The translations under genes and the position numbers were made by a program. This document shows positions 4,595-32,108 of a stretch of DNA of 32,475 nt, one piece after another. Location: assembly GCA_029977665.1 (NCBI GenBank), contig JAPOKK010000013.1:1-32475 (forward strand). The letters run 5' to 3'. Positions within the stretch are counted from its first letter, which is position 1; each line of letters begins with the position of its first letter. Origin of the DNA: Pseudomonadota bacterium (GTDB lineage Bacteria > Pseudomonadota > Gammaproteobacteria > Ga0077536). A model generated the notes under the pieces. It had not been told where the DNA came from and did no database searches. It saw only the letters and a program-made list of their open reading frames with translations.

Positions 4595-6040
4595 TCAGGC
4601 GCTGGCGCCGGCCGCGATCCAGTTGCCGTGGAAGCCGGGCGGAACCCGGTGCGGTAACGTGACCGTGGCGAGCGGCGGTGCAGTGAAGTCCGCGGCGTCG
4701 AGCACGGTGAGCGCCGTGGTGTCGTCGTTCATGTCGACGACCAGCCCGAGCAGCCAGCCGTCGTCCTCGGCCGCATCCGCGCTGCGCGGCACGAACACGA
4801 ACTCGCCCGGGTGGCGCCCAGGGCCGAAGTCGTGCACGGCGCGCTCACCGCGCTCGAGGTCGTGGCGGAACAGGCGCGTATCGGTGACCAGCCCGGGGCC
4901 GGCGGCGGCCGCCGCCATGCAGTAGGCATAGCGGTAGGGGCTGCCGGTGCGACGTTCGTCGTAGCGCGGGAACTCCTGGCCTTCGTTATCGACGATCTCG
5001 CGCGCGACCGCCGCGGCACCGGGGGCCAGCGTCCAGCGCTCGAAGCTCATGCGCGAACCGTCGGGGCCATCGTAATGGTCGTCGAACATGCGATCGTGGG
5101 CGACGACATCGACCACGACGCTGCCGTCGGCGCGTTCGAACGCGTTGGCGGGGTGGAACACGAAGCAGGGATCGACCGCGTACCAGCGCATGTCCGCCGC
5201 CGTGCCGGTACGCGGCAGCAGGCCGACGCGTGCCGGGTGCTCGGGGTTCCAGCGGTAGGGGAACGGGTGTCCGGCGAGCAGCAGTGCCATGGAGAACGTG
5301 ACCGGCAGGTCGAGCACGATCACGTAGCGTGGCGTGATGGCGCAGTCGTGGATGCAGGGGCCGTCGGTGACGGTAATCGGTTCTTCCCGAACGACCCGGC
5401 CGGCGGCGTCGACCACGGTGTGCCACACGGTGTCCTGCACGTCGCCGCGGTAGCAGATGGCATGCAACTCGCCGTTCGCCGGGTCGCGATGCGGATGCGC
5501 GGAGTAGGGGCCGGCGAGACCGCCGGCGAAATCGTCGTAGCGCTGCGTTTCGAGGTTGTCGTCCAGCAGTACCGGCGCGGTGCCGGCCTCGACCAGCGCC
5601 CAGGTACGCCCGGCATGCGCGATGACGTTGGTGTTGACGACGCCGCGCTCGCGCCCGGGCGGCGCCGGCACCGCGGTTTCGCCGAGCGCGGTACTGACCG
5701 CGTCCGAGTGGATCCAGCGATTGCGGTACCACGTGGCCCGGCCGTCGTGCAGGCGTATGCCGTGCACCATGCCGTCACCGACGAACCAGTGGTGCGTGGC
5801 GGGGTTCGGCGCGACCAGCGGATTGGGCCCGATGCGCAGGTAGCGGCCGTCGAGCGCCGGCGGCAGGCAGCCGGTGACGGGCAGGTCGGTGAGGGTGTGC
5901 TCGGCCGTCAGCGGGGTGTGGATACCGCTCAGGTAGGGATGTGCGTCGCCCCGCGTGCGGACCGCGTTGGCGGCGCGGGCGACGCCGCGCGCGCCGGCCG
6001 TGATCGAGGAGCGGATGAGTTTCTCGACTTTGCTCGACAT
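4595..6040 (-). CDS. carotenoid oxygenase family dioxygenase (RPE65/lignostilbene dioxygenase type)
   Basis: This 481-residue non-haem Fe(II) dioxygenase cleaves C=C bonds in carotenoids, apocarotenoids or stilbenes. The four iron-binding histidines expected of the seven-blade propeller fold are visible: H182 (AHPHRD), H231 (IHDCAITP), H296 (FVFHPANAFE) and H471 (FHGNW). Family blocks GPNP (71-74) and FVGDGMVHG (86-94) are also present. The frame is open to 6136, but the start is placed at ATG 6040: GGGAGGT lies 5-6 bp before it, and the upstream extension would read through the operator. It is divergent from a TetR gene with a 35-bp dyad 18 bp upstream of its start, so repression by that TetR is likely. 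No carotenoid biosynthesis gene is visible here, so an apocarotenoid or aromatic stilbene substrate is equally possible. Confidence 0.93.
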   Translation of the reverse strand: MSSKVEKLIRSSITAGARGVARAANAVRTRGDAHPYLSGIHTPLTAEHTLTDLPVTGCLPPALDGRYLRIGPNPLVAPNPATHHWFVGDGMVHGIRLHDGRATWYRNRWIHSDAVSTALGETAVPAPPGRERGVVNTNVIAHAGRTWALVEAGTAPVLLDDNLETQRYDDFAGGLAGPYSAHPHRDPANGELHAICYRGDVQDTVWHTVVDAAGRVVREEPITVTDGPCIHDCAITPRYVIVLDLPVTFSMALLLAGHPFPYRWNPEHPARVGLLPRTGTAADMRWYAVDPCFVFHPANAFERADGSVVVDVVAHDRMFDDHYDGPDGSRMSFERWTLAPGAAAVAREIVDNEGQEFPRYDERRTGSPYRYAYCMAAAAAGPGLVTDTRLFRHDLERGERAVHDFGPGRHPGEFVFVPRSADAAEDDGWLLGLVVDMNDDTTALTVLDAADFTAPPLATVTLPHRVPPGFHGNWIAAGASA

Positions 6041-9723: not shown

Positions 9724-12015
9724 ATGCTGCTAGCAACCGACCTCGACGGCACGTACCTCGGCGGTTCGCGCGCCGATCGCGACCGTCTCTACCGCCTCAT
9801 CGACGAGACCCCCGACATTACGCTCGCCTACGTCACCGGACGCGGCCTCGAGCACGTGCGCCCGCTGTTGTCCGACCCGTCGCTGGCGCGTCCCGACTAC
9901 ATCGTCTGCGACGTCGGCGCGACGATCGTCGATGGTCGTACGCTCGAACCCGTGCAGCCCCTGCAGGCCGCGATCGACGAGCGCTGGCCGGGCGAGCAGG
10001 GTATCGCCGAGGCCATGCGCGCTTACCCCGAAGTGTTGCGCCAGGACGTGCCGCAGCAGCGACGCTGCTCGTATTACTCAGACCCGGACGCGCTGGCGCG
10101 CGTTATGAACGAGGTCAAGCGCATCGCCGAAGACTGCGACTGCGACCTCATCTACTCGGCGAGCTGGTACCTCGACTTCCTGCCGCGCGGCATCAACAAG
10201 GGCTCGACCGTCCGCGAGCTCGCCAGGCTGCTCGACATCTCGCTTGAGGACGTGCTGGTCGCCGGTGACACCCTCAACGACCTCAGCATGTACAAGATCG
10301 GCTGCCGTGGCGTGTGTGTCGGGCGCTCGGAACCGGAGCTGCTCTACGAGACGCGTGAACGTGAGCATATTCTCCACGCCCGACGTTCCGGCTGTGGCGG
10401 CATACTCGAGGCGCTGGAGCATTTCGAGTTCGTCGACGCGCCGGGGCTGCGTGGCGAGAAGCAGGCCGTAGCGCCGGGTGAAGCCGAACTGGTCATGCTC
10501 TACCACCGCCTGCCTTACGCGGAGGTGATCGAGAACGGCGTCGTCGAACGCCGTCCCCATGCGTCACCGAACGGCATCCTGCCGACGCTGCTCGGTTTCT
10601 TCAAATCCGCGCGCTCGGCGGGCTCCTGGGTGGCCTGGTCGGTGCACGAGGACGACGAGGCCCCGTTTGAGAAACGCACCGTCGTCGACGAGGCGCAGTA
10701 CCCGAACCTGGTCTGCTCGCGCGTGCCGCTCAGCAAGCACGAGGTCGACGTGTTCTACAAGCGCTTCTCGAAAGAAGCATTCTGGCCGCTGCTGCACACC
10801 TTCTGGGAACGTTCGGCGTTCAACGAAGAACACTGGCAGATTTATGTCGACATCAACCGCAAGTTCGCGCGGCACGCGGCCGAGGAAGCGGCCGACGGCG
10901 CGCTGGTCTGGATCCACGACTACAACCTGTGGATGGTGCCGGGCTTCCTGCGCGAGCTGCGCCCCGACGTCCAGATTGCCTTCTTCCACCACACCTACTT
11001 CCCTTCGGCCGACGTGTTCAACGTGCTGCCGTGGCGCAACGACATCATCGGCAGCCTGATGCAGTGTGATTACATCGGCTTCCACATTCCCCGGCAGCTC
11101 GAGAACTTCATCGACTGCGTGCGCGGCGTGATGCCGGTCGAGGTACTCGAACGCACGCGCTGCGCGCCGCGTTTCCTCACCTACGGTTGCGCGGTGGGCA
11201 TCGAGCACATGACGACGGCGATTCGCGTCAACGACCATGCGCTCAGGCTCGGCGCGCACCCCGTCGGCCTCGACATCGCGCGCATCGATCACCTCATCGA
11301 GCAGGACAGCATCGCTGCGCGCGTCGAGGAGCTGCGTGCGATGAACGACGACATGCAGGTGATCCTGTCGGTCGAGCGCCTCGATTTCACCAAGGGCGTG
11401 CTGCAGAAGCTGCAGGCCTACGAGCAGCTGCTGGAAGAGAACCCGGATCTCGTCGGGCGCATCACCCTGATCGACGTCTGCGTGCCGGCGGCGCGCGAGA
11501 TGACCATCTACCAGGAGCTCGAGCGCCAGATCGACGAATGCGTGGGGCGCATCAACGGGCGTTTCGGCAAGCTCGGCTACATGCCGGTGCAGTTCCTGTT
11601 CCAGCCGTTGCCGTTCGAGGAACTCGTCGGCCTCTATGCCATCGCCGACGTCATGTGGATCACGCCGCTGCGCGACGGCCTCAACCTCGTTGCCAAGGAG
11701 TACGTCGCAACCCGCTTCAAGACTGCGGGGCACGGCGTCCTGGTGCTCTCGGAGTTCACCGGCGCAGCGGCCGAGCTGCACGGCGCCATCCTCACCAATC
11801 CGCACGATCAGCGGAACCTGGTCGACGCGGTGCTGCGCGCGTTGAATCTCGACGAGCGCGAGGCACGCAACCTCATGACCACGCTTTACAACATCATCGA
11901 GTACAACGACGTCGACAGCTGGGCACAGGAGTTCATGGAAGCGGCACGCGGCGCCTGCCTGCCGCGCCAACCCACGCTGACGCCTGCGCTGGTGGCGAAT
12001 CGCGCGGCCGTCTGA
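9724..12015 (+). CDS. ggpPS: fused glucosylglycerol-phosphate phosphatase/synthase (HAD + GT20)
   Basis: This 763-residue bifunctional protein has two domains. Residues 1-250 are a HAD phosphatase of the sucrose-phosphatase type, with nucleophile D6 and D8 (TDLDGTY) and motif IV GDTLND (181-186). Residues from about 255 are a GT20 glycosyltransferase beginning LVMLYHRLPYAEV, with SPNGILPTL, WIHDYNLWMVP, FFHHTYFPSADVFN, VERLDFTKGV and RDGLNLVAKEY. The opening blocks match glucosylglycerol-phosphate synthase more than trehalose-phosphate synthase. Together the domains would join ADP-glucose and glycerol 3-phosphate and remove the phosphate, giving the compatible solute glucosylglycerol. The same fusion order is known in Azotobacter ggpPS. 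The start is ATG 9724 because AGGTGA lies 5 bp upstream; GTG 9715 would overlap that site. It lies 87 bp after the phosphorylase and 14 bp before the symporter. Confidence 0.88.
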   Translation: MLLATDLDGTYLGGSRADRDRLYRLIDETPDITLAYVTGRGLEHVRPLLSDPSLARPDYIVCDVGATIVDGRTLEPVQPLQAAIDERWPGEQGIAEAMRAYPEVLRQDVPQQRRCSYYSDPDALARVMNEVKRIAEDCDCDLIYSASWYLDFLPRGINKGSTVRELARLLDISLEDVLVAGDTLNDLSMYKIGCRGVCVGRSEPELLYETREREHILHARRSGCGGILEALEHFEFVDAPGLRGEKQAVAPGEAELVMLYHRLPYAEVIENGVVERRPHASPNGILPTLLGFFKSARSAGSWVAWSVHEDDEAPFEKRTVVDEAQYPNLVCSRVPLSKHEVDVFYKRFSKEAFWPLLHTFWERSAFNEEHWQIYVDINRKFARHAAEEAADGALVWIHDYNLWMVPGFLRELRPDVQIAFFHHTYFPSADVFNVLPWRNDIIGSLMQCDYIGFHIPRQLENFIDCVRGVMPVEVLERTRCAPRFLTYGCAVGIEHMTTAIRVNDHALRLGAHPVGLDIARIDHLIEQDSIAARVEELRAMNDDMQVILSVERLDFTKGVLQKLQAYEQLLEENPDLVGRITLIDVCVPAAREMTIYQELERQIDECVGRINGRFGKLGYMPVQFLFQPLPFEELVGLYAIADVMWITPLRDGLNLVAKEYVATRFKTAGHGVLVLSEFTGAAAELHGAILTNPHDQRNLVDAVLRALNLDEREARNLMTTLYNIIEYNDVDSWAQEFMEAARGACLPRQPTLTPALVANRAAV

Positions 12016-18941: not shown

Positions 18942-19862
18942 TCAGTCGGTCGGCCCGCCCTGCGCCACCCAGGTGGCGCACGACGCGCCGAGTTCGTTCT
19001 CAGCCAGACGCTCGTAACGGGCGATGTCGGCAGCCGGCAGCACGGCGCGCCAGCGCCCGTTCGTGCCCTTGTGGATGAAGCGCGTGGCGCCGCCGTCCAT
19101 GCGCTTCCTGATGTGCGGCGCGATGCGCTCGGCGTTCGCCTTCATGTAATCGAACGTGCAACGCTGCACGATCGCGGGCCAGCGGGCCGGGGCTATGTCG
19201 ATATCGAGGAAGTCCGCGACGCGACGCATCTGGCCCTCGAGGTCGGCAAGCAGGTCGTTGTAGTGCAGCAGGAGCACGTTGGGCAGTGCTCGGACTTCCC
19301 ACCAGGAGCGCACGTTGCCGAAGAACGGCCAGGCCGGGTAGCCATCGCCGTCGAGCCAGTCGCGGAAATAGCGCGCGATGTCGGCGCAGGGGCGTTCTAG
19401 CGGCGGACCGACGCGACCGGGGGTGTCGTTGATCATCGCGTAAGCCGCGTCGTTGTAGGCCTGGTGGTGGTTGTACCAGCTCATCAGGGCGTCGCGGCCG
19501 TCGCGAGCGATATACAGGTATCGCGCCCGTGACGAGAAGACCAGGGCATCGACCGGCAGGTGCGTCTTCATGAAGCGCCGGTGCGTCTGCGCCTCGAGCA
19601 TCGCGCGTACTTTCTCGATCGGCGCATAGCGCTGGTCGATCCAAGGCGCGAGATCCATGATGGGCACGGTATCGGCGTCGTCGAACAGCAGCTGTGCGAC
19701 GATCTGCTGCATCCAGGTGGTGCCGGACTTGGCCCAGGTGGCGATGACGATATCGCCGTCGCGAAACGCGAAGCCGTTCCAGCGCGTCGAGTCCATGTGA
19801 TGATTCTGCAGCTCGCGCTGCTTGAGCGGCCACGCCGGTGGCGTTGCATCGTGCGCACTCAT
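18942..19862 (-). CDS. PAPS-dependent sulfotransferase
   Basis: This 306-residue cytosolic-type sulfotransferase would move a sulfuryl group from PAPS to a hydroxyl or amine of a small molecule. The 5'-phosphosulfate loop is ATWAKSGTTWMQQ (K45SGTTW50), the catalytic His is in FMKTHLP, and the 3'-phosphate site is ARDGRDALMSW. The C-terminal block carrying RKRMDGGATRFIHKG is equivalent to the family's RKGxxGDW region. The start ATG 19862 has GGAGGA 6 bp upstream. It is the last gene of a minus-strand block after a P450 (61-bp gap), a dehydrogenase and a BVMO, so sulfation of a hydroxylated hydrophobic compound, such as a steroid-like alcohol, is a reasonable guess. Bacterial members of this family are mostly uncharacterised. 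Confidence 0.93.
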   Translation of the reverse strand: MSAHDATPPAWPLKQRELQNHHMDSTRWNGFAFRDGDIVIATWAKSGTTWMQQIVAQLLFDDADTVPIMDLAPWIDQRYAPIEKVRAMLEAQTHRRFMKTHLPVDALVFSSRARYLYIARDGRDALMSWYNHHQAYNDAAYAMINDTPGRVGPPLERPCADIARYFRDWLDGDGYPAWPFFGNVRSWWEVRALPNVLLLHYNDLLADLEGQMRRVADFLDIDIAPARWPAIVQRCTFDYMKANAERIAPHIRKRMDGGATRFIHKGTNGRWRAVLPAADIARYERLAENELGASCATWVAQGGPTD

Positions 19863-25858: not shown

Positions 25859-26731
25859 GTGGATGCCAAGAGCGAGTACGCCTACATCGACTACCAGTTG
25901 CCCGAGGCGCACATCGCGCGCATCGTGCTCAACCGGCCGGAAACCGCCAACGCCCAGGACACCCGGTTCCTCTACGAACTAAACGATGCTTTCGACCGCG
26001 CCGCACACGACGAGGACGTGCGCGTGATCATTCTCGCCGCCAACGGCAAGCACTTCTCGTCCGGCCACGACCTCGGCGAGAAGAACTGGTACGAGGCGAT
26101 GCACGATTACGACACCGTCGGCACCATGTGCGGATTCACCTGCGCCGGGGCCGAGGCGCAGATGGCGCGCGAGGAGGAGATCTACGTCGGCTTCAGCGAG
26201 CGCTGGCGCAACATTCCCAAGCCGACCATCGCCGCGGTCCAGGGCAAGTGCATCGCCGGCGGGTTGATGCTGTGCTGGCCGTGTGACCTCATCATTGCCA
26301 GCGACGACGCGAGCTTCAGCGATCCAACCGTCAGCTTCGGCATCGGCGGCGTCGAGTTCTTCCACCACCTGTGGGAGGTCGGCGCGCGCAAGGCGAAGGA
26401 GATGCTGTTCACCTCCGACGCCATTTCCGCCGAGGAGGCGCGCGAACTCGGCATGGTCAACAAGGTGGTGCCGCGCGCGGAACTCGAGGAAGCGACGCTC
26501 GAGATGGCGCGCAAGATCGCCGCCAAGTCACGCTTTGCGCTCAAGATGACGAAGAAGGCCATCAACGGCGCGCAGGATGCACAGGGGCGGGAACTCGCCA
26601 TGCAGAACGCCTTCCACCTGCACCAGCTCGCGCACACCCACTGGCTCAAGGTGTGCGATTTCCTCATGGACCCGAGCGGCCTGCCGGAAGCGACGCGCAA
26701 GGCGCTCGGTATCCGGCTCGAACAGGACTGA
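25859..26731 (+). CDS. enoyl-CoA hydratase/isomerase family protein (crotonase)
   Basis: This 290-residue crotonase-fold protein acts on acyl-CoA thioesters. The first oxyanion-hole segment is HFSSGHDLGE and the second is KCIAGGLMLCWPCDLIIAS, followed by a GIGGVEFF stretch where hydratases place catalytic acids. The start is GTG 25859, supported by GGGGGGAG about 8 bp upstream; the ATG at 25863 is out of frame. An insert after the first segment (NWYEAMHDYDTVGTMCGF) is longer than in short-chain hydratases and suggests a larger substrate. It is the first gene of a seven-gene run, 18 bp before an acyl-CoA dehydrogenase, so it belongs to a beta-oxidation-like pathway. Hydratase, isomerase or hydrolase activity cannot be told apart by eye. 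Confidence 0.92.
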   Translation: MDAKSEYAYIDYQLPEAHIARIVLNRPETANAQDTRFLYELNDAFDRAAHDEDVRVIILAANGKHFSSGHDLGEKNWYEAMHDYDTVGTMCGFTCAGAEAQMAREEEIYVGFSERWRNIPKPTIAAVQGKCIAGGLMLCWPCDLIIASDDASFSDPTVSFGIGGVEFFHHLWEVGARKAKEMLFTSDAISAEEARELGMVNKVVPRAELEEATLEMARKIAAKSRFALKMTKKAINGAQDAQGRELAMQNAFHLHQLAHTHWLKVCDFLMDPSGLPEATRKALGIRLEQD

Positions 26732-26749
26732 GTCCGCGGCACGCGCTGA

Positions 26750-27928
26750 ATGTTATTCGAAGCGGCACTCGATGCGGCCGATCGCGCGTTCCTCGCGGAG
26801 GTGCGTGCTTTCCTCGACGGCGCACTCGACGCCAGCATCGTCGAGCCGGAAGACGCGCTGCGCTCTCAGGTCTGCGATCACCCCCGCCAGGAGGCCTGGA
26901 TCGAGCGTTTGCGTCCGCGTCGCTGGCATGTCGGCTTCTGGCCGGTCGAGCACGGCGGCGCCGGGCTCGGCCAGGTCCAGAACTACCTGCTGCTCTACGA
27001 GCAGGGCCGGCGTGGGGCGCCGCTGCTCTCGCCGTTGAGCATCACCTACGTCGGTCCGGTCGTGATGGCGTTCGGCACGCCCGCCCAGCAGCAGGCGCTG
27101 TTGCCGGCGATCGTCGACGGGCGCGATCACTGGTGCCAGGGCTTTTCCGAGCCCGGTTCCGGATCGGATCTCGGTAGCGTATCGACATTCGCCGAGCGCC
27201 GTGGCGACCGTTACGTCGTCAACGGTTCGAAGATCTGGACCACGGACGCACACCACGCCAACAAGATCTTCTGCCTGCTGCGCACGCGTCGCGAGCAGAG
27301 CAAGGACGCGCTCAGCTTCCTGCTCATCGACATGGACACGCCCGGTGTCACGGTACGGCCGATTCGCCTGATGACCGGCGACCACGAGTTCAACCAGGTC
27401 TTTTTCGATGACGTCGAGGTGCCCGCCGAGAACCTCCTCGGTGGCGAGGGCGGGGGCTGGGCGGTCGCGAAGTACCTGCTCGAAATGGAGCGCGGCGCGT
27501 TCGTGTTCGGCGGGCGCCTGCGTCGCCGCTTCGAGCTGCTGCTGGCCGGCGCACGCGCACGCGACGACGTGCCGCGCGCGTTCTGGCACGAGGCCGCGCG
27601 TGTCGACGTCGAGCTGATGGCCTACGAGGCGACCGAGTTCCGTCTCGGCCACCTGCGAGCGCGCGAGGCGCAGACCGCCGCCGAACCCAACGTGATCAAG
27701 ATCGGCTGGACCGAGACCATGCAGCGTATCGACGAACTGGCGCTGATGCTGGCGCGCGTGGACTGGCTCTACGCGCCCGAACCCACCCTTGGCCCGGGTA
27801 AGGACGGCCTGCCGATGTCGAGCTGGCTGGCGGGCTATTTCAACAACCGCGCGGCGACCATTTACGGCGGCAGCAACGAGATCCAGCGCGAGCTGATCTT
27901 CCGCAGCCTGCGCCGCGAGCTGACATGA
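26750..27928 (+). CDS. acyl-CoA dehydrogenase subunit, beta-domain half intact
   Basis: This 392-residue flavoprotein of the acyl-CoA dehydrogenase family performs alpha,beta-dehydrogenation of an acyl-CoA. The beta-domain signature GFSEPGSGSD (131-140) and NGSKIWTT are present, as is the C-terminal YGGSNEIQRE (372-381). The FAD-contacting RxQFG motif and the QxHGGxG motif of ordinary homotetrameric members are missing. These appear in the next gene, which in turn lacks the motifs found here. This split is known from two-gene heterotetrameric enzymes such as mycobacterial FadE28-FadE29 and FadE26-FadE27, which act on steroid side chains. In YGGSNEIQ the medium-chain enzyme's catalytic Glu position is Gly. 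The start ATG 26750 is 18 bp after the crotonase stop; the ribosome site is weak. The substrate is likely bulky, which is inference. Confidence 0.92.
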   Translation: MLFEAALDAADRAFLAEVRAFLDGALDASIVEPEDALRSQVCDHPRQEAWIERLRPRRWHVGFWPVEHGGAGLGQVQNYLLLYEQGRRGAPLLSPLSITYVGPVVMAFGTPAQQQALLPAIVDGRDHWCQGFSEPGSGSDLGSVSTFAERRGDRYVVNGSKIWTTDAHHANKIFCLLRTRREQSKDALSFLLIDMDTPGVTVRPIRLMTGDHEFNQVFFDDVEVPAENLLGGEGGGWAVAKYLLEMERGAFVFGGRLRRRFELLLAGARARDDVPRAFWHEAARVDVELMAYEATEFRLGHLRAREAQTAAEPNVIKIGWTETMQRIDELALMLARVDWLYAPEPTLGPGKDGLPMSSWLAGYFNNRAATIYGGSNEIQRELIFRSLRRELT

Positions 27929-27956
27929 GCCCGGCAGCACCTGCCGCGGAACGCCC

Positions 27957-29063
27957 ATGAGCCTGACGCCGTCCCCGGAATGCGCGGCGCTGGTCGACAG
28001 CGCCGAGCGCATGGTGCGCGAACGCTATGACTACGCCTCGCTGCGTGCGGTGCTGGCGAGCGCGGACGACGACAGCCGGGCGCGCTGGCATGACTTCGCC
28101 GAACTCGGCTGGCTGGCCGTGCCGCTGGCCGAAGCCGACGGCGGCCTCGGGCTCGCGCCGTCGGTCGCGAGTGCGCTGATCGCGGCGCTGGGTCCGGCGG
28201 CGATGAGCGAGCCCCTGCCCAGCCAGCTCGCCCTGTCTGGCTACCTGCTGGGGCGCGCGCGGCCGACGCCGCGCCGCGACGCGGTGCTCGCGCGCTGGCT
28301 GGCCGGGGATAGCCTGCTGGCGCTGCTCGAGCCGCTGCCGGCAACGGGCATGGTGATGACGACGCACGGCGACGCGGTGCTCGACGGGCACGCCGGCGCG
28401 GTGCTCGATGCCGGCCTGGCCGACGTTCTCATCGTCGGCGCGCGGCAGGAGGACGGTGTGCCGGCCTACTATCTCGTCGACGCGGACGCTGAGGGTGTCG
28501 CGCGCCACGCGCGACGGGGCGCGGACGGGCGCGATTTCGCCGACGTCGCGCTGCGCGGTGTTCGTGTGGGTGCGAGCGAACGCCTCGACCTGACGGCAGC
28601 CGCACCTGGCGAGGCGCAGGGCTACTTTGCCTTGTTGCTCGCGTCCGAGTCGCTCGGCATCATGCACGCGCTCGTGCGGCTGACTGCCGAGCATCTTGCG
28701 CAACGCGAGCAGTTCGGCCGCAAGCTCATTGACTTCCAGGAACTCCAGCACCGCCTGGTCGACATGCAGCTCGAGGCCGTGCGCGCGGAATCGATGCTCG
28801 AAGTCGCGCGCCTCCACTGTGATCAAGGCGGCCTGGGCACGGCTGCGGCGATGACCTCCGCCGCCCTGTACCAGGCGGCACGATCGGGCCGGCGCGTCGC
28901 CGAGGAAGCGGTGCAACTGCACGGCGCGATAGGCATGACCGACGAACTCGTCGTCGGGCATTATCTCAAGCGCATCATCAGCAACGCGATCATCGGCGGT
29001 CATGCCGAGACGCATCTGGAGCGGGCCGCGAGTGCGCGCGGCATCTCTTCTCCTTCTCCTTGA
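27957..29063 (+). CDS. acyl-CoA dehydrogenase partner subunit, FAD-motif half intact
   Basis: This 368-residue acyl-CoA dehydrogenase homologue lies 28 bp after its partner. The FAD-binding motifs are here: REQFGRKLIDFQELQHRL from R250, and QLHGAIGMTDE (320-330). The beta-domain signature GFSEPGSGSD is absent, replaced by divergent sequence with no recognisable substrate loop, and the C-terminus lacks the GGSNEIQ block. The N-terminal half is also degenerate (Ala/Leu-rich), as in the non-catalytic partner subunits of heterotetrameric enzymes. It is therefore best read as one half of an alpha2beta2 complex with the preceding gene. The start is ATG 27957; the upstream GCGGAA is only a weak ribosome site, so translation may depend on the upstream gene. 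Confidence 0.9.
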   Translation: MSLTPSPECAALVDSAERMVRERYDYASLRAVLASADDDSRARWHDFAELGWLAVPLAEADGGLGLAPSVASALIAALGPAAMSEPLPSQLALSGYLLGRARPTPRRDAVLARWLAGDSLLALLEPLPATGMVMTTHGDAVLDGHAGAVLDAGLADVLIVGARQEDGVPAYYLVDADAEGVARHARRGADGRDFADVALRGVRVGASERLDLTAAAPGEAQGYFALLLASESLGIMHALVRLTAEHLAQREQFGRKLIDFQELQHRLVDMQLEAVRAESMLEVARLHCDQGGLGTAAAMTSAALYQAARSGRRVAEEAVQLHGAIGMTDELVVGHYLKRIISNAIIGGHAETHLERAASARGISSPSP

Positions 29064-29080
29064 CAGCAACGAGACCAGCC

Positions 29081-29566
29081 ATGCCCCAGACCAACTGTCA
29101 GACCGCGGCCATGCTCAGCGTCGGCATGACGCACGAAGAGCGCGTCAGTTTCAGCCACGAGGAAGTCGCGCGCTACTGCGAGCTCGCCAATGACCGCAAC
29201 GCCATTCACCATGACGTTGCCGCGGCGCGCGTGCGCTTTCCCGGCGTGGCGGACATCATCGTGCCGGGGGGGCTGCTGCAAATCGCTATCACCGGCTTGT
29301 TCGGCACGGTGCTGCCCGGCGACGGCAGCCTGGGCCTGACGTTCGAGCCCGAGCGCATGCGCAAGCCGGTATGTCCCAACGAAGAGGTCGTCATCCGCCT
29401 CGAGATCACGCGGATCCGCGCCGGCATCATTGAATTCGACGTCGGCGTGACCAGCGGCGGCGGCGAGCCCATCAGCGGCGCCAAGGCGCGTGTGTTCGCT
29501 CCGGACGAGAACTACCGCCAGTGGTGGCTGACACAGCAGGCCGCCGCCGGCGAGGCCAGCGCATGA
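29081..29566 (+). CDS. MaoC-like (R)-hydratase, hot-dog fold
   Basis: This 161-residue MaoC-family protein would hydrate trans-2-enoyl-CoA. The hydratase motif is visible as YCELANDRNAIHHD, with catalytic D38 and H43, followed by FPGVADIIVPGGLLQ in place of the usual VAHGML. The hot-dog strands continue to KARVFAPDENYRQWW. The start is ATG 29081; TTG 29060 in frame would overlap the previous stop and gives no family match. The gene begins 17 bp after the second dehydrogenase subunit and overlaps the following SDR by 4 bp (ATGA). Together with the split dehydrogenase it mirrors the dehydrogenation/hydration order of ChsE1-ChsE2 and ChsH1-ChsH2 in cholesterol side-chain degradation. Here a single MaoC gene is present rather than a pair. 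Confidence 0.9.
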   Translation: MPQTNCQTAAMLSVGMTHEERVSFSHEEVARYCELANDRNAIHHDVAAARVRFPGVADIIVPGGLLQIAITGLFGTVLPGDGSLGLTFEPERMRKPVCPNEEVVIRLEITRIRAGIIEFDVGVTSGGGEPISGAKARVFAPDENYRQWWLTQQAAAGEASA

Positions 29567-30243
29567 GCGGGCGCCTCGCCGGCAAGCGCGTGCTGCTGAC
29601 GCAGGCCGGGGATTTCATGGGGCCGGTCACCGTCGACGTGTTCACCGAGGAAGGCGCGACGGTCATCGCCGACACGCGTGACCTGACCCGCCCCGGCGCC
29701 TGCGAGGCGGCCGTGGCGGAGGCCGGCGAGATCGACGTGCTCGTCGCCAACCTGGCCTCTCCGACCTTCACCGGTATCGCGACCACCGAGCTCTCCGACG
29801 ACGATTGGCTGACGCCGTTCGAGGTCATGGTGCACCCGCTGCACCGTCTCACGCGCGCGGTGTTGCCGCAGATGATCGCGCGTCAACGCGGCAAGATCGT
29901 CGTCTACGGCAGCGCGTCGGCGCTGCGCGGCATGAAGACGCTCGCGACTTACAGCGCGGCGCGCGCCGCCCAGCTCGGCTACGTGCAGTCGGTCGGCGTC
30001 GAAGTCGCACCGCACAACGTTCAGGTCAACCTGATCGCGCAGAATTACGTCGCCAGCGAGGACTACTACCCGGCCGAGTTGATGGCCAAGGAGTCGTTCG
30101 TCAAGTCACTGCGCCGCCAGGTTCCGGCAGGACGCCTCGGCACGCCGCGCGAGGACGCGGCGTTCGCGCTGTTCCTCGCCAGCGACGAGTCCGGGTTCTT
30201 CTGTGGCCAGGGTTTTCCCTTTGCCGGTGGCTGGGCGCAGTAG
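29563..30243 (+). CDS. atypical short-chain dehydrogenase/reductase
   Basis: This 226-residue SDR-fold protein has non-standard sites. The nucleotide loop reads LTQAGDFMGP where classical enzymes have TGxxxGxG. The catalytic Ser is S117 or S119 (YGSASALRG) and Tyr is Y130, but the essential Lys is replaced by Arg (YSAARAA, R134). NLAS stands in for NNAG. The C-terminal FFCGQGFPFAGGW matches the usual VTGQxxxxxGG region. The start ATG 29563 is coupled to the MaoC stop by ATGA; the frame extends to 29521 without homology. It would oxidise the hydroxyacyl-CoA made by the hydratase, but the altered loop and Lys-to-Arg change could mean altered cofactor use or a non-catalytic role. A sequencing error is unlikely since the frame is intact. 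Confidence 0.85.
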   Translation: MSGRLAGKRVLLTQAGDFMGPVTVDVFTEEGATVIADTRDLTRPGACEAAVAEAGEIDVLVANLASPTFTGIATTELSDDDWLTPFEVMVHPLHRLTRAVLPQMIARQRGKIVVYGSASALRGMKTLATYSAARAAQLGYVQSVGVEVAPHNVQVNLIAQNYVASEDYYPAELMAKESFVKSLRRQVPAGRLGTPREDAAFALFLASDESGFFCGQGFPFAGGWAQ

Positions 30244-30300
30244 CCGCAAGCGGCCGTATCTGTGCCATGATGCCGCCCTTAACCATGAGGGAGGTTCGCA

Positions 30301-31149
30301 ATGGATATCGGCGTCATCATGTTTCCGACGGACAAGGCCATCCAGCCGATGGACCTGGCGCGCGCGTGCGAGGAGCGCGGATTCGAGTCGCTGTGGTTCC
30401 CCGAGCACAGCCACATCCCGACCAGCCGTGAAACGCCCTGGGGCGGCCGCCCGGAGCTCGGTCCGTTGCCGGAGGAATACTGGCGCACCCACGACCAGTT
30501 CGTTGCCCTGACCGCGGCCGCCGCGGTGACCAGCAAGCTGCGTCTCGGCACCGGCATCACCCTCGTCGCGCAGCGTGACCCGCTGTGGCTGGCCAAGGAA
30601 GTGGCGAGCCTGGACGTCATCTCCGGCGGGCGCTTCGAGCTTGGTATCGGCTACGGCTGGTGCGTGGAGGAGATGCGCAATCACGGGCTCGATTTCAAGC
30701 AGCGCCGTGCGATCCTGCGCGAGCACATCCTGGCCATGAAGGAGTTGTGGACCAAGGACGAGGCAAGCTTCGACGGCGAGTACGTGAAGCTCGAACAGAG
30801 CTGGGCCTGGCCCAAGCCCCTGCAGCGGCCCTCCCCGCCGATCGTGATGGGTGGTGCGGCCGGCCCCAAGACCGCCGCCCACGTGGCCGAGTTCTGTGAC
30901 GGCTGGATGCCGCTCGGCGGACTCTACGACTTCGATGGTGGTCTGAAGCAGATCAACGCCGCGTGCGAGAAGATCGGGCGCGACCCGGCCAGTCTCGACA
31001 TCGGCATGTTCTTCGCCGCGCCGCCGGATGCTGACGCGGTCAAGGGTCTGCGCGATCGCGGTGGTATCAGGCGCGCCATCCTGCCGCTGCCGCCGGCACC
31101 GGCGGACAAGGTGCTGCCGGTACTGGACGCCTACGCCAAGTTCATCTGA
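30301..31149 (+). CDS. LLM-class flavin- or F420-dependent oxidoreductase
   Basis: This 282-residue luciferase-like (TIM-barrel) oxidoreductase opens MDIGVIMFPTDKAI. Further family blocks are ERGFESLWFPEHSHIP, LRLGTGITLVAQRDPL, EVASLDVISGGRFELGIGYGW, and PIVMGGAAGPKTAAHVAEFCDGWMP. These features fit the subgroup often annotated as F420-dependent in mycobacteria (TIGR03619-like), although FMN-dependent members also occur in proteobacteria. No F420 biosynthesis gene is in the window, so the cofactor is open. The start ATG 30301 has GGGAGG about 7 bp upstream. It lies 57 bp after the SDR and 53 bp before an esterase, in the same direction as the catabolic run, and probably oxidises or reduces an intermediate of the same compound. 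Confidence 0.92.
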   Translation: MDIGVIMFPTDKAIQPMDLARACEERGFESLWFPEHSHIPTSRETPWGGRPELGPLPEEYWRTHDQFVALTAAAAVTSKLRLGTGITLVAQRDPLWLAKEVASLDVISGGRFELGIGYGWCVEEMRNHGLDFKQRRAILREHILAMKELWTKDEASFDGEYVKLEQSWAWPKPLQRPSPPIVMGGAAGPKTAAHVAEFCDGWMPLGGLYDFDGGLKQINAACEKIGRDPASLDIGMFFAAPPDADAVKGLRDRGGIRRAILPLPPAPADKVLPVLDAYAKFI

Positions 31150-31202
31150 ACGCGTCCCACGCGTGGCGACCGCGGTTGCGGTAGTCACGCGCGGCAGCGC
31201 CG

Positions 31203-32108
31203 ATGATGGATGCCATCCGCAACGCCCAACTCGCCGCGATCCGCACGCTGCTGCGCGATCGGCCGATCGCGCAGCCCGGCGCTTCCTTTGCCGAGATGCG
31301 GCGCGGCCTCGATGCCCTGGGTGACCTTAGTCCGCCGTTGCCGGGCGTCACCGCGACCGCGGTCGATGCCGGCGGCGTAGCCGCTACCTGGTTCACGGCC
31401 AGCGGCGGCGATAGTGGTCGCATCGTGCTCTACCTGCACGGCGGCGGTTACGTGATGGGCTCGGTGCGTTCGCACCGGCCGCTGCTCGAGCGGCTGGCGC
31501 TTGCCGTCGAGGGGCGCGTGCTGGCGCTGGATTACCGTCTCGCGCCGGAGGCGCCGTTTCCGGCCGCGGTGGAGGATGCGTGCGCCGCCTGGCACTGGCT
31601 TCTCGCCAGCGGTGCGGCGGCCGAGCGCATCGCCGTCGCGGGCGATTCCGCCGGCGGCGGCCTCGCCGTGGCCCTGCTCGTCGCGCTGCGCGATGCGCGG
31701 GTCGCGCTGCCTGCCTGTGCCGTACCGATCTCGCCCTGGACGGACATGACGGCGAGCGGCGCATCGATGCAGACCCGTGCAGCGCGCGATCCCATGGTGC
31801 AACGCGCGGCGCTGCTCGCGATCGCCGCGACCTACCTCGACGGCGCCGCGCCGGAGACGCCGTTGGCATCACCGCTCAATGCCGAACTCGATGGCCTGCC
31901 GCCCTTCCTGATCCAGGTCGGCGACGCGGAGACGCTGCTCGACGACAGCACGCGCCTCGCTGCACGGCTCGAAGCCGCGGGGGTCGACGTGACGCTGGAA
32001 GTATGGGACGACATGATCCACGTGTGGCATCTGTTCGCGCCGATCCTGGATGCCGGCCAACAGGCGATCGCACGAATCGGCGACTTCGTGCGTACGCATG
32101 CTGGCTGA
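31203..32108 (+). CDS. alpha/beta hydrolase, hormone-sensitive lipase family esterase
   Basis: This 301-residue esterase of the HSL (family IV) group hydrolyses short-chain carboxylic esters. The oxyanion-hole motif is HGGGY (79-83). The nucleophile elbow is GDSAGG with Ser149, and the remaining triad members are Asp241 (QVGDAETLLDD) and His273 (DMIHVWHLF). The N-terminal cap helices are normal in length. Two adjacent ATG codons (31203 and 31206) could start it. It is the last gene of the plus-strand catabolic run, 53 bp after the LLM oxidoreductase. Because Baeyer-Villiger enzymes make esters or lactones, an esterase such as this is a natural partner, but the link is contextual only. Confidence 0.93.
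   Translation: MMDAIRNAQLAAIRTLLRDRPIAQPGASFAEMRRGLDALGDLSPPLPGVTATAVDAGGVAATWFTASGGDSGRIVLYLHGGGYVMGSVRSHRPLLERLALAVEGRVLALDYRLAPEAPFPAAVEDACAAWHWLLASGAAAERIAVAGDSAGGGLAVALLVALRDARVALPACAVPISPWTDMTASGASMQTRAARDPMVQRAALLAIAATYLDGAAPETPLASPLNAELDGLPPFLIQVGDAETLLDDSTRLAARLEAAGVDVTLEVWDDMIHVWHLFAPILDAGQQAIARIGDFVRTHAG

Follow-up and report, generated by a model that had tools for sequence, protein, structure and literature searches.

Two adjacent acyl-CoA dehydrogenase (ACAD) genes, here called ACADα and ACADβ, raise the question of whether an uncultured gammaproteobacterium encodes at this locus two enzymes or the two halves of one, and on what substrate class such an enzyme would act. The window analysed is the entire contig C438 (32,475 bases), taken from a 4.2 Mb assembly in 442 contigs. 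The initial annotation had placed both open reading frames exactly: they lie on one strand, separated by 28 nt, within a run of seven same-strand genes at 25859-32108 that starts with an enoyl-CoA hydratase (ECH) gene ending 18 nt before ACADα (Table 1). No Rfam matches were found in the window, and the assembly yielded no 16S gene. The luciferase-like protein of the run matches TIGR03619, an F420-dependent family; the host is a gammaproteobacterium.

Table 1. Genes of the same-strand run that includes the ACAD pair (window coordinates)
Feature	Position	Strand	Remarks
Enoyl-CoA hydratase (ECH), third member of the conserved cassette	25859..26731	+	NCBIfam PRK08290, 392.7 bits (cut-off 280)
ACADα, putative FAD-binding, catalytic-type subunit	26750..27928	+	392 aa; GFSEPGSGSD (aa 131-140); E247 as candidate base; IYGGSNEIQ replaces YEG
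ACADβ, putative non-catalytic partner	27957..29063	+	368 aa; REQFG (aa 250-254) and QLHGAIG (aa 320-326); FAD motif and catalytic Glu both absent
MaoC-like hydratase, same operon	29081..29566	+	below the Pfam gathering score
SDR oxidoreductase, same operon	29563..30243	+	
Luciferase-like oxidoreductase, same operon	30301..31149	+	TIGR03619, 245.8 bits (cut-off 166.9)
Hormone-sensitive-lipase-like esterase	31203..32108	+	last operon gene on the contig

Elsewhere in the window, a carotenoid-cleaving dioxygenase gene (4595-6040, minus strand) matches the NCBIfam model for 8'-apo-carotenoid 13,14-cleaving dioxygenase with 730.3 bits (cut-off 675), and the gene at 9724-12015 (plus strand), next to an α-amylase-family gene, encodes a sucrose-phosphatase-like HAD domain fused to a GT20 domain, perhaps for compatible-solute synthesis. 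A sulfotransferase gene (18942-19862, minus strand) with no NCBIfam match at 1e-20 adjoins a cytochrome P450 gene.

The motifs typical of the FAD pocket are divided between the two proteins in a complementary way. ACADα has the ACAD middle (FAD) domain (71.6 bits in Pfam) with the GFSEPGSGSD motif and lacks both RxQFG and QxHGxxG; ACADβ has these latter two motifs, lacks GFSEPGSGSD and has no Pfam match to the middle domain. Both translations thus bear out the distribution of motifs given in the initial annotation. Where ordinary ACADs have their C-terminal catalytic Glu (the 'YEG' of SCAD and MCAD), ACADα has a Gly, and ACADβ has no Glu at either of the usual catalytic positions. E247 of ACADα aligns with the Glu of the 'NHER' motif in ChsE4 (4X28_A) and Tcur3483 (6WY9_A), which in ChsE4 we take to be the catalytic base. 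This is in line with the description of heteromeric ACADs as enzymes with the catalytic Glu in one subunit and FAD at the subunit interface (PMC8399759), and a Glu on ACADα only, as read from the sequence, matches that arrangement. By alignment to ChsE4 and Tcur3483, E247 is likely the catalytic base of ACADα: a Glu is present at this position throughout the alpha-type homologues examined, 25 of them paired and 62 unpaired, and the dipeptide E247-R248 is kept in all 87.

The closest relatives of known structure are subunits of heteromeric enzymes. The top PDB sequence match of ACADα is Tcur3483 (8e-36), followed among distinct proteins by ChsE4, and that of ACADβ is Tcur3481 (1.3e-16). The best NCBIfam models are PimC for ACADα (TIGR03204, 262.8 bits, cut-off 623.85) and PimD for ACADβ (TIGR03203, 150.7 bits, cut-off 652.7). 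In a tree of 58 proteins, built with a quick method and with partial PDB references drawn from HMMER alignments, alpha subunits join alpha subunits (support 100) and beta subunits join beta subunits (support 99, Tcur3481 included). Grouping with ordinary ACADs, which the initial annotation had named as an outcome counting against one shared enzyme, was not found: the homotetrameric enzymes lie outside both subunit groups and mix into neither. ACADα falls into a six-member clade (support 100) inside a proteobacterial group, with the PimC-like proteins as the neighbouring group, and the clade of ACADβ contains the same genomes as the clade of ACADα.

The AlphaFold2 models of both proteins are of high confidence (mean pLDDT 89.7 for ACADα and 92.3 for ACADβ). 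For the ACADα model, Foldseek ranks one to four are α chains from 6WY9, 6WY8 and 4X28, all of them α2β2 complexes, followed by 8HK0, a two-protein ACAD complex; with VIA-align, 6WY8_B comes first (Z 38.5, rmsd 3.2, 374 aligned residues). For the ACADβ model, Foldseek places Tcur3481 first, whereas VIA-align prefers a homotetrameric SCAD (43.6) to ChsE5 (41.0). As the two methods disagree, the fold of ACADβ is by itself not diagnostic of the heteromeric type.

ACADα and ACADβ are therefore very likely the subunits of one heteromeric, FAD-dependent acyl-CoA dehydrogenase, very probably of α2β2 composition; motifs, E247, PDB and NCBIfam matches, tree and α fold agree with the initial proposal that the two genes encode complementary halves of one active enzyme. 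From what is directly visible (the motifs and their complementarity, the adjacency and conservation of the genes, the trees and the predicted folds) we infer that the two proteins assemble in this stoichiometry, share FAD and are active. ACADα would contribute the base E247 and the middle domain that holds FAD, and ACADβ would reach across the dimer interface to complete the pocket for FAD with its RxQFG/QxHGxxG half, without taking part in catalysis, as in ChsE4-ChsE5 and Tcur3481-Tcur3483. The product would be an α,β-enoyl-CoA, to be hydrated by the co-conserved ECH and perhaps also by the MaoC protein.

The order ECH-α-β is shared by eight further genomes from the host's family, three of which are affected by contig ends: the cassette is complete in G006, G007, G010, G020 and G021, a contig end cuts β in G029 and α in G014, and G001 has all three genes, split over two contigs. 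Across this set, amino acid identity is 80-97% for ECH, 56-91% for α and 38-54% for β. At 58-63% alpha identity, the cassette has so far turned up only in one uncultured gammaproteobacterial family. Near a contig end of G001, a 488-aa open frame (L097:613-2061) joins the N-terminal half of ACADα to a glycogen-binding CBM48/AMPK1_CBM domain; this apparent fusion is likely an assembly chimera. Within the genome of the window, the best PimC-like matches are on contigs C15, C232, C438, C423 and C60, and each adjoins or is fused to a PimD-like partner. Since the best PimC-like matches of this genome each come with a PimD-like partner, and the ECH-α-β order is kept in the family, chance adjacency does not explain the pair.

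Outside the same genus, the MaoC and luciferase-like genes are near the cassette in G007 only (luciferase-like gene: 77%), and the plasmid relatives of ECH and α are found in varied degradation operons that have no substrate in common. The substrate class is most likely a ring-bearing (cyclic), branched or dicarboxylic acyl-CoA. Tentatively, the ECH-α-β cassette may represent a functionally separate heteromeric ACAD subfamily whose substrate is a ring-derived or branched acyl-CoA not yet described; the adjacent P450, BVMO and esterase might make this compound.

It is possible, if rather unlikely, that the pair oxidises dicarboxylyl-CoAs or medium-chain acyl-CoAs in the manner of PimCD. Among named families, PimC and PimD score best for the two proteins, the PimC-like group is next to the group of the window clade in the α tree, and PimCD homologues have fitness phenotypes on dicarboxylates, namely C8-C12 diacids, in β-proteobacteria (PMC12543098). 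However, both proteins score far below the equivalog cut-offs, ACADα is outside the PimC-like group in the tree, and it is about 43% identical to the α protein with the best PimC score (563 bits) among 274 genomes of the class, none of which has a PimC equivalog above the cut-off.

The initial annotation had compared the pair with FadE28-FadE29 of cholesterol side-chain catabolism. It is improbable that this organism uses the pair as its dehydrogenase for steroid side chains, of the FadE28-FadE29 (ChsE1-ChsE2) or Scd type, even though the nearest relatives of solved structure are steroid ACADs, BVMO and SDR genes occur close by, and the P450 (19924-21141, minus strand) has CYP126 as by far its closest solved natural relative (387 bits), ahead of CYP125/CYP124-type enzymes. 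In the tree, which is built without FadE28 and without proteobacterial Scd sequences, a branch with SH-aLRT 99 separates ACADα from ChsE4 and Tcur3483. Among the window genes, no Ltp2-like aldolase, SCP2-type thiolase or DUF35 partner was found, only a 168-aa MaoC-like protein. The best matches in the genome to IpdE2 (126.3 of 450 bits) and FadD3 (415.9 of 657 bits) are below the cut-offs, with the assembly fragmented and both models possibly too narrow for Proteobacteria; the best FadD3-type match of G007 is just under the cut-off (652.8 of 657 bits). The window BVMO is nearest to cyclohexanone monooxygenases. P450, BVMO, and SDR genes near the cassette are common to the same genus only, save other BVMO-like genes in one further genus; such other BVMO-like genes are near the cassette in G021 and G029. 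The P450 and BVMO genes are thus weak clues to the substrate, contrary to the use first made of them together with the SDR gene. Heteromeric ACADs also serve dicarboxylates, and the architecture alone is therefore no pointer to steroids. Nor is the occurrence in Proteobacteria new: Scd1AB, Scd2AB and Scd3AB/ScdC1C2 (PMC8399759) and PimCD (PMC12543098) are already proteobacterial. The enzyme type is thus known from this phylum, and a steroid link of this pair is not supported.

The complementary split of motifs had been regarded as the hallmark of a paired enzyme. The split between ACADα and ACADβ stands, but the absence of RxQFG does not by itself mark a paired protein: of the 87 alpha-type homologues aligned, 62 lack both RxQFG and a same-strand β gene within 300 bp, and such a β gene is present at 26 of the 92 α loci examined. 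Unpaired α loci are mostly alphaproteobacterial (many are among loci L110-L184), and RxQFG is missing there too, except in fused β-α proteins. At some of them a β gene lies about 3 kb away, at others none was seen in the sequence examined, and some proteins of this branch may work without a neighbouring β. These unpaired homologues, together with the faster divergence of β (43-47% identity) than of α (58-63%), would fit a degenerate, non-functional ACADβ next to an α protein that works without it. This is very unlikely for the window: β is open and full-length in the five complete relatives, R-x-QFG and QLHGAIG are invariant in the clade, and β is kept beside α wherever the contig is long enough, the exception being G001, where α is broken across two contigs. 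Hardly credible at all are two independent, separately active ACADs that arose side by side by tandem duplication: both proteins belong to the ACAD superfamily and the predicted β fold is near homotetrameric ACADs, but each lacks, in complementary fashion, the motifs for FAD binding and catalysis of its own, α and β are separate ancient branches of the tree rather than recent duplicates, and family members retain the α-β order.

If the pair works as one heteromeric enzyme, a known enzyme design extends to one more lineage, with no new principle, and heteromeric ACADs are not to be taken as markers of steroid degradation. The conserved ECH-α-β cassette is a defined and testable unit for finding the substrate.

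Among the known systems, PimC-PimD, the pimeloyl-CoA dehydrogenase, is likewise a proteobacterial α/β pair encoded by adjacent ACAD genes, from which the window pair differs by its low equivalog scores and its separate clade. Tcur3481-Tcur3483 (6WY8/6WY9) and ChsE4-ChsE5 (4X28) are α2β2 steroid ACADs with the same split of motifs and the α base at the same helix position, but they are about 23-28% identical to the window pair and belong to an actinobacterial steroid branch, whereas the window has no steroid gene context. Fic32-Fic33 of Streptomyces ficellus (8HK0) is a two-protein ACAD complex, presumably part of an antibiotic pathway, to which ACADα is 24% identical (Z 37.0 in VIA-align). Scd1AB, Scd2AB and Scd3AB/ScdC1C2 of Pseudomonas stutzeri Chol1 and Comamonas testosteroni (PMC8399759, PMC6678751) are also proteobacterial heteromeric ACADs but, unlike the window pair, are located in steroid gene clusters. 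A CasC-like fused β-α ACAD is encoded in the same genome on contig C15 as one 816-aa open frame (L099:544-2850), and many members of the family have comparable open frames of about 780-900 aa. In CasC-type proteins a single chain unites both halves (PMC8399759), whereas in the window they are encoded by separate genes.
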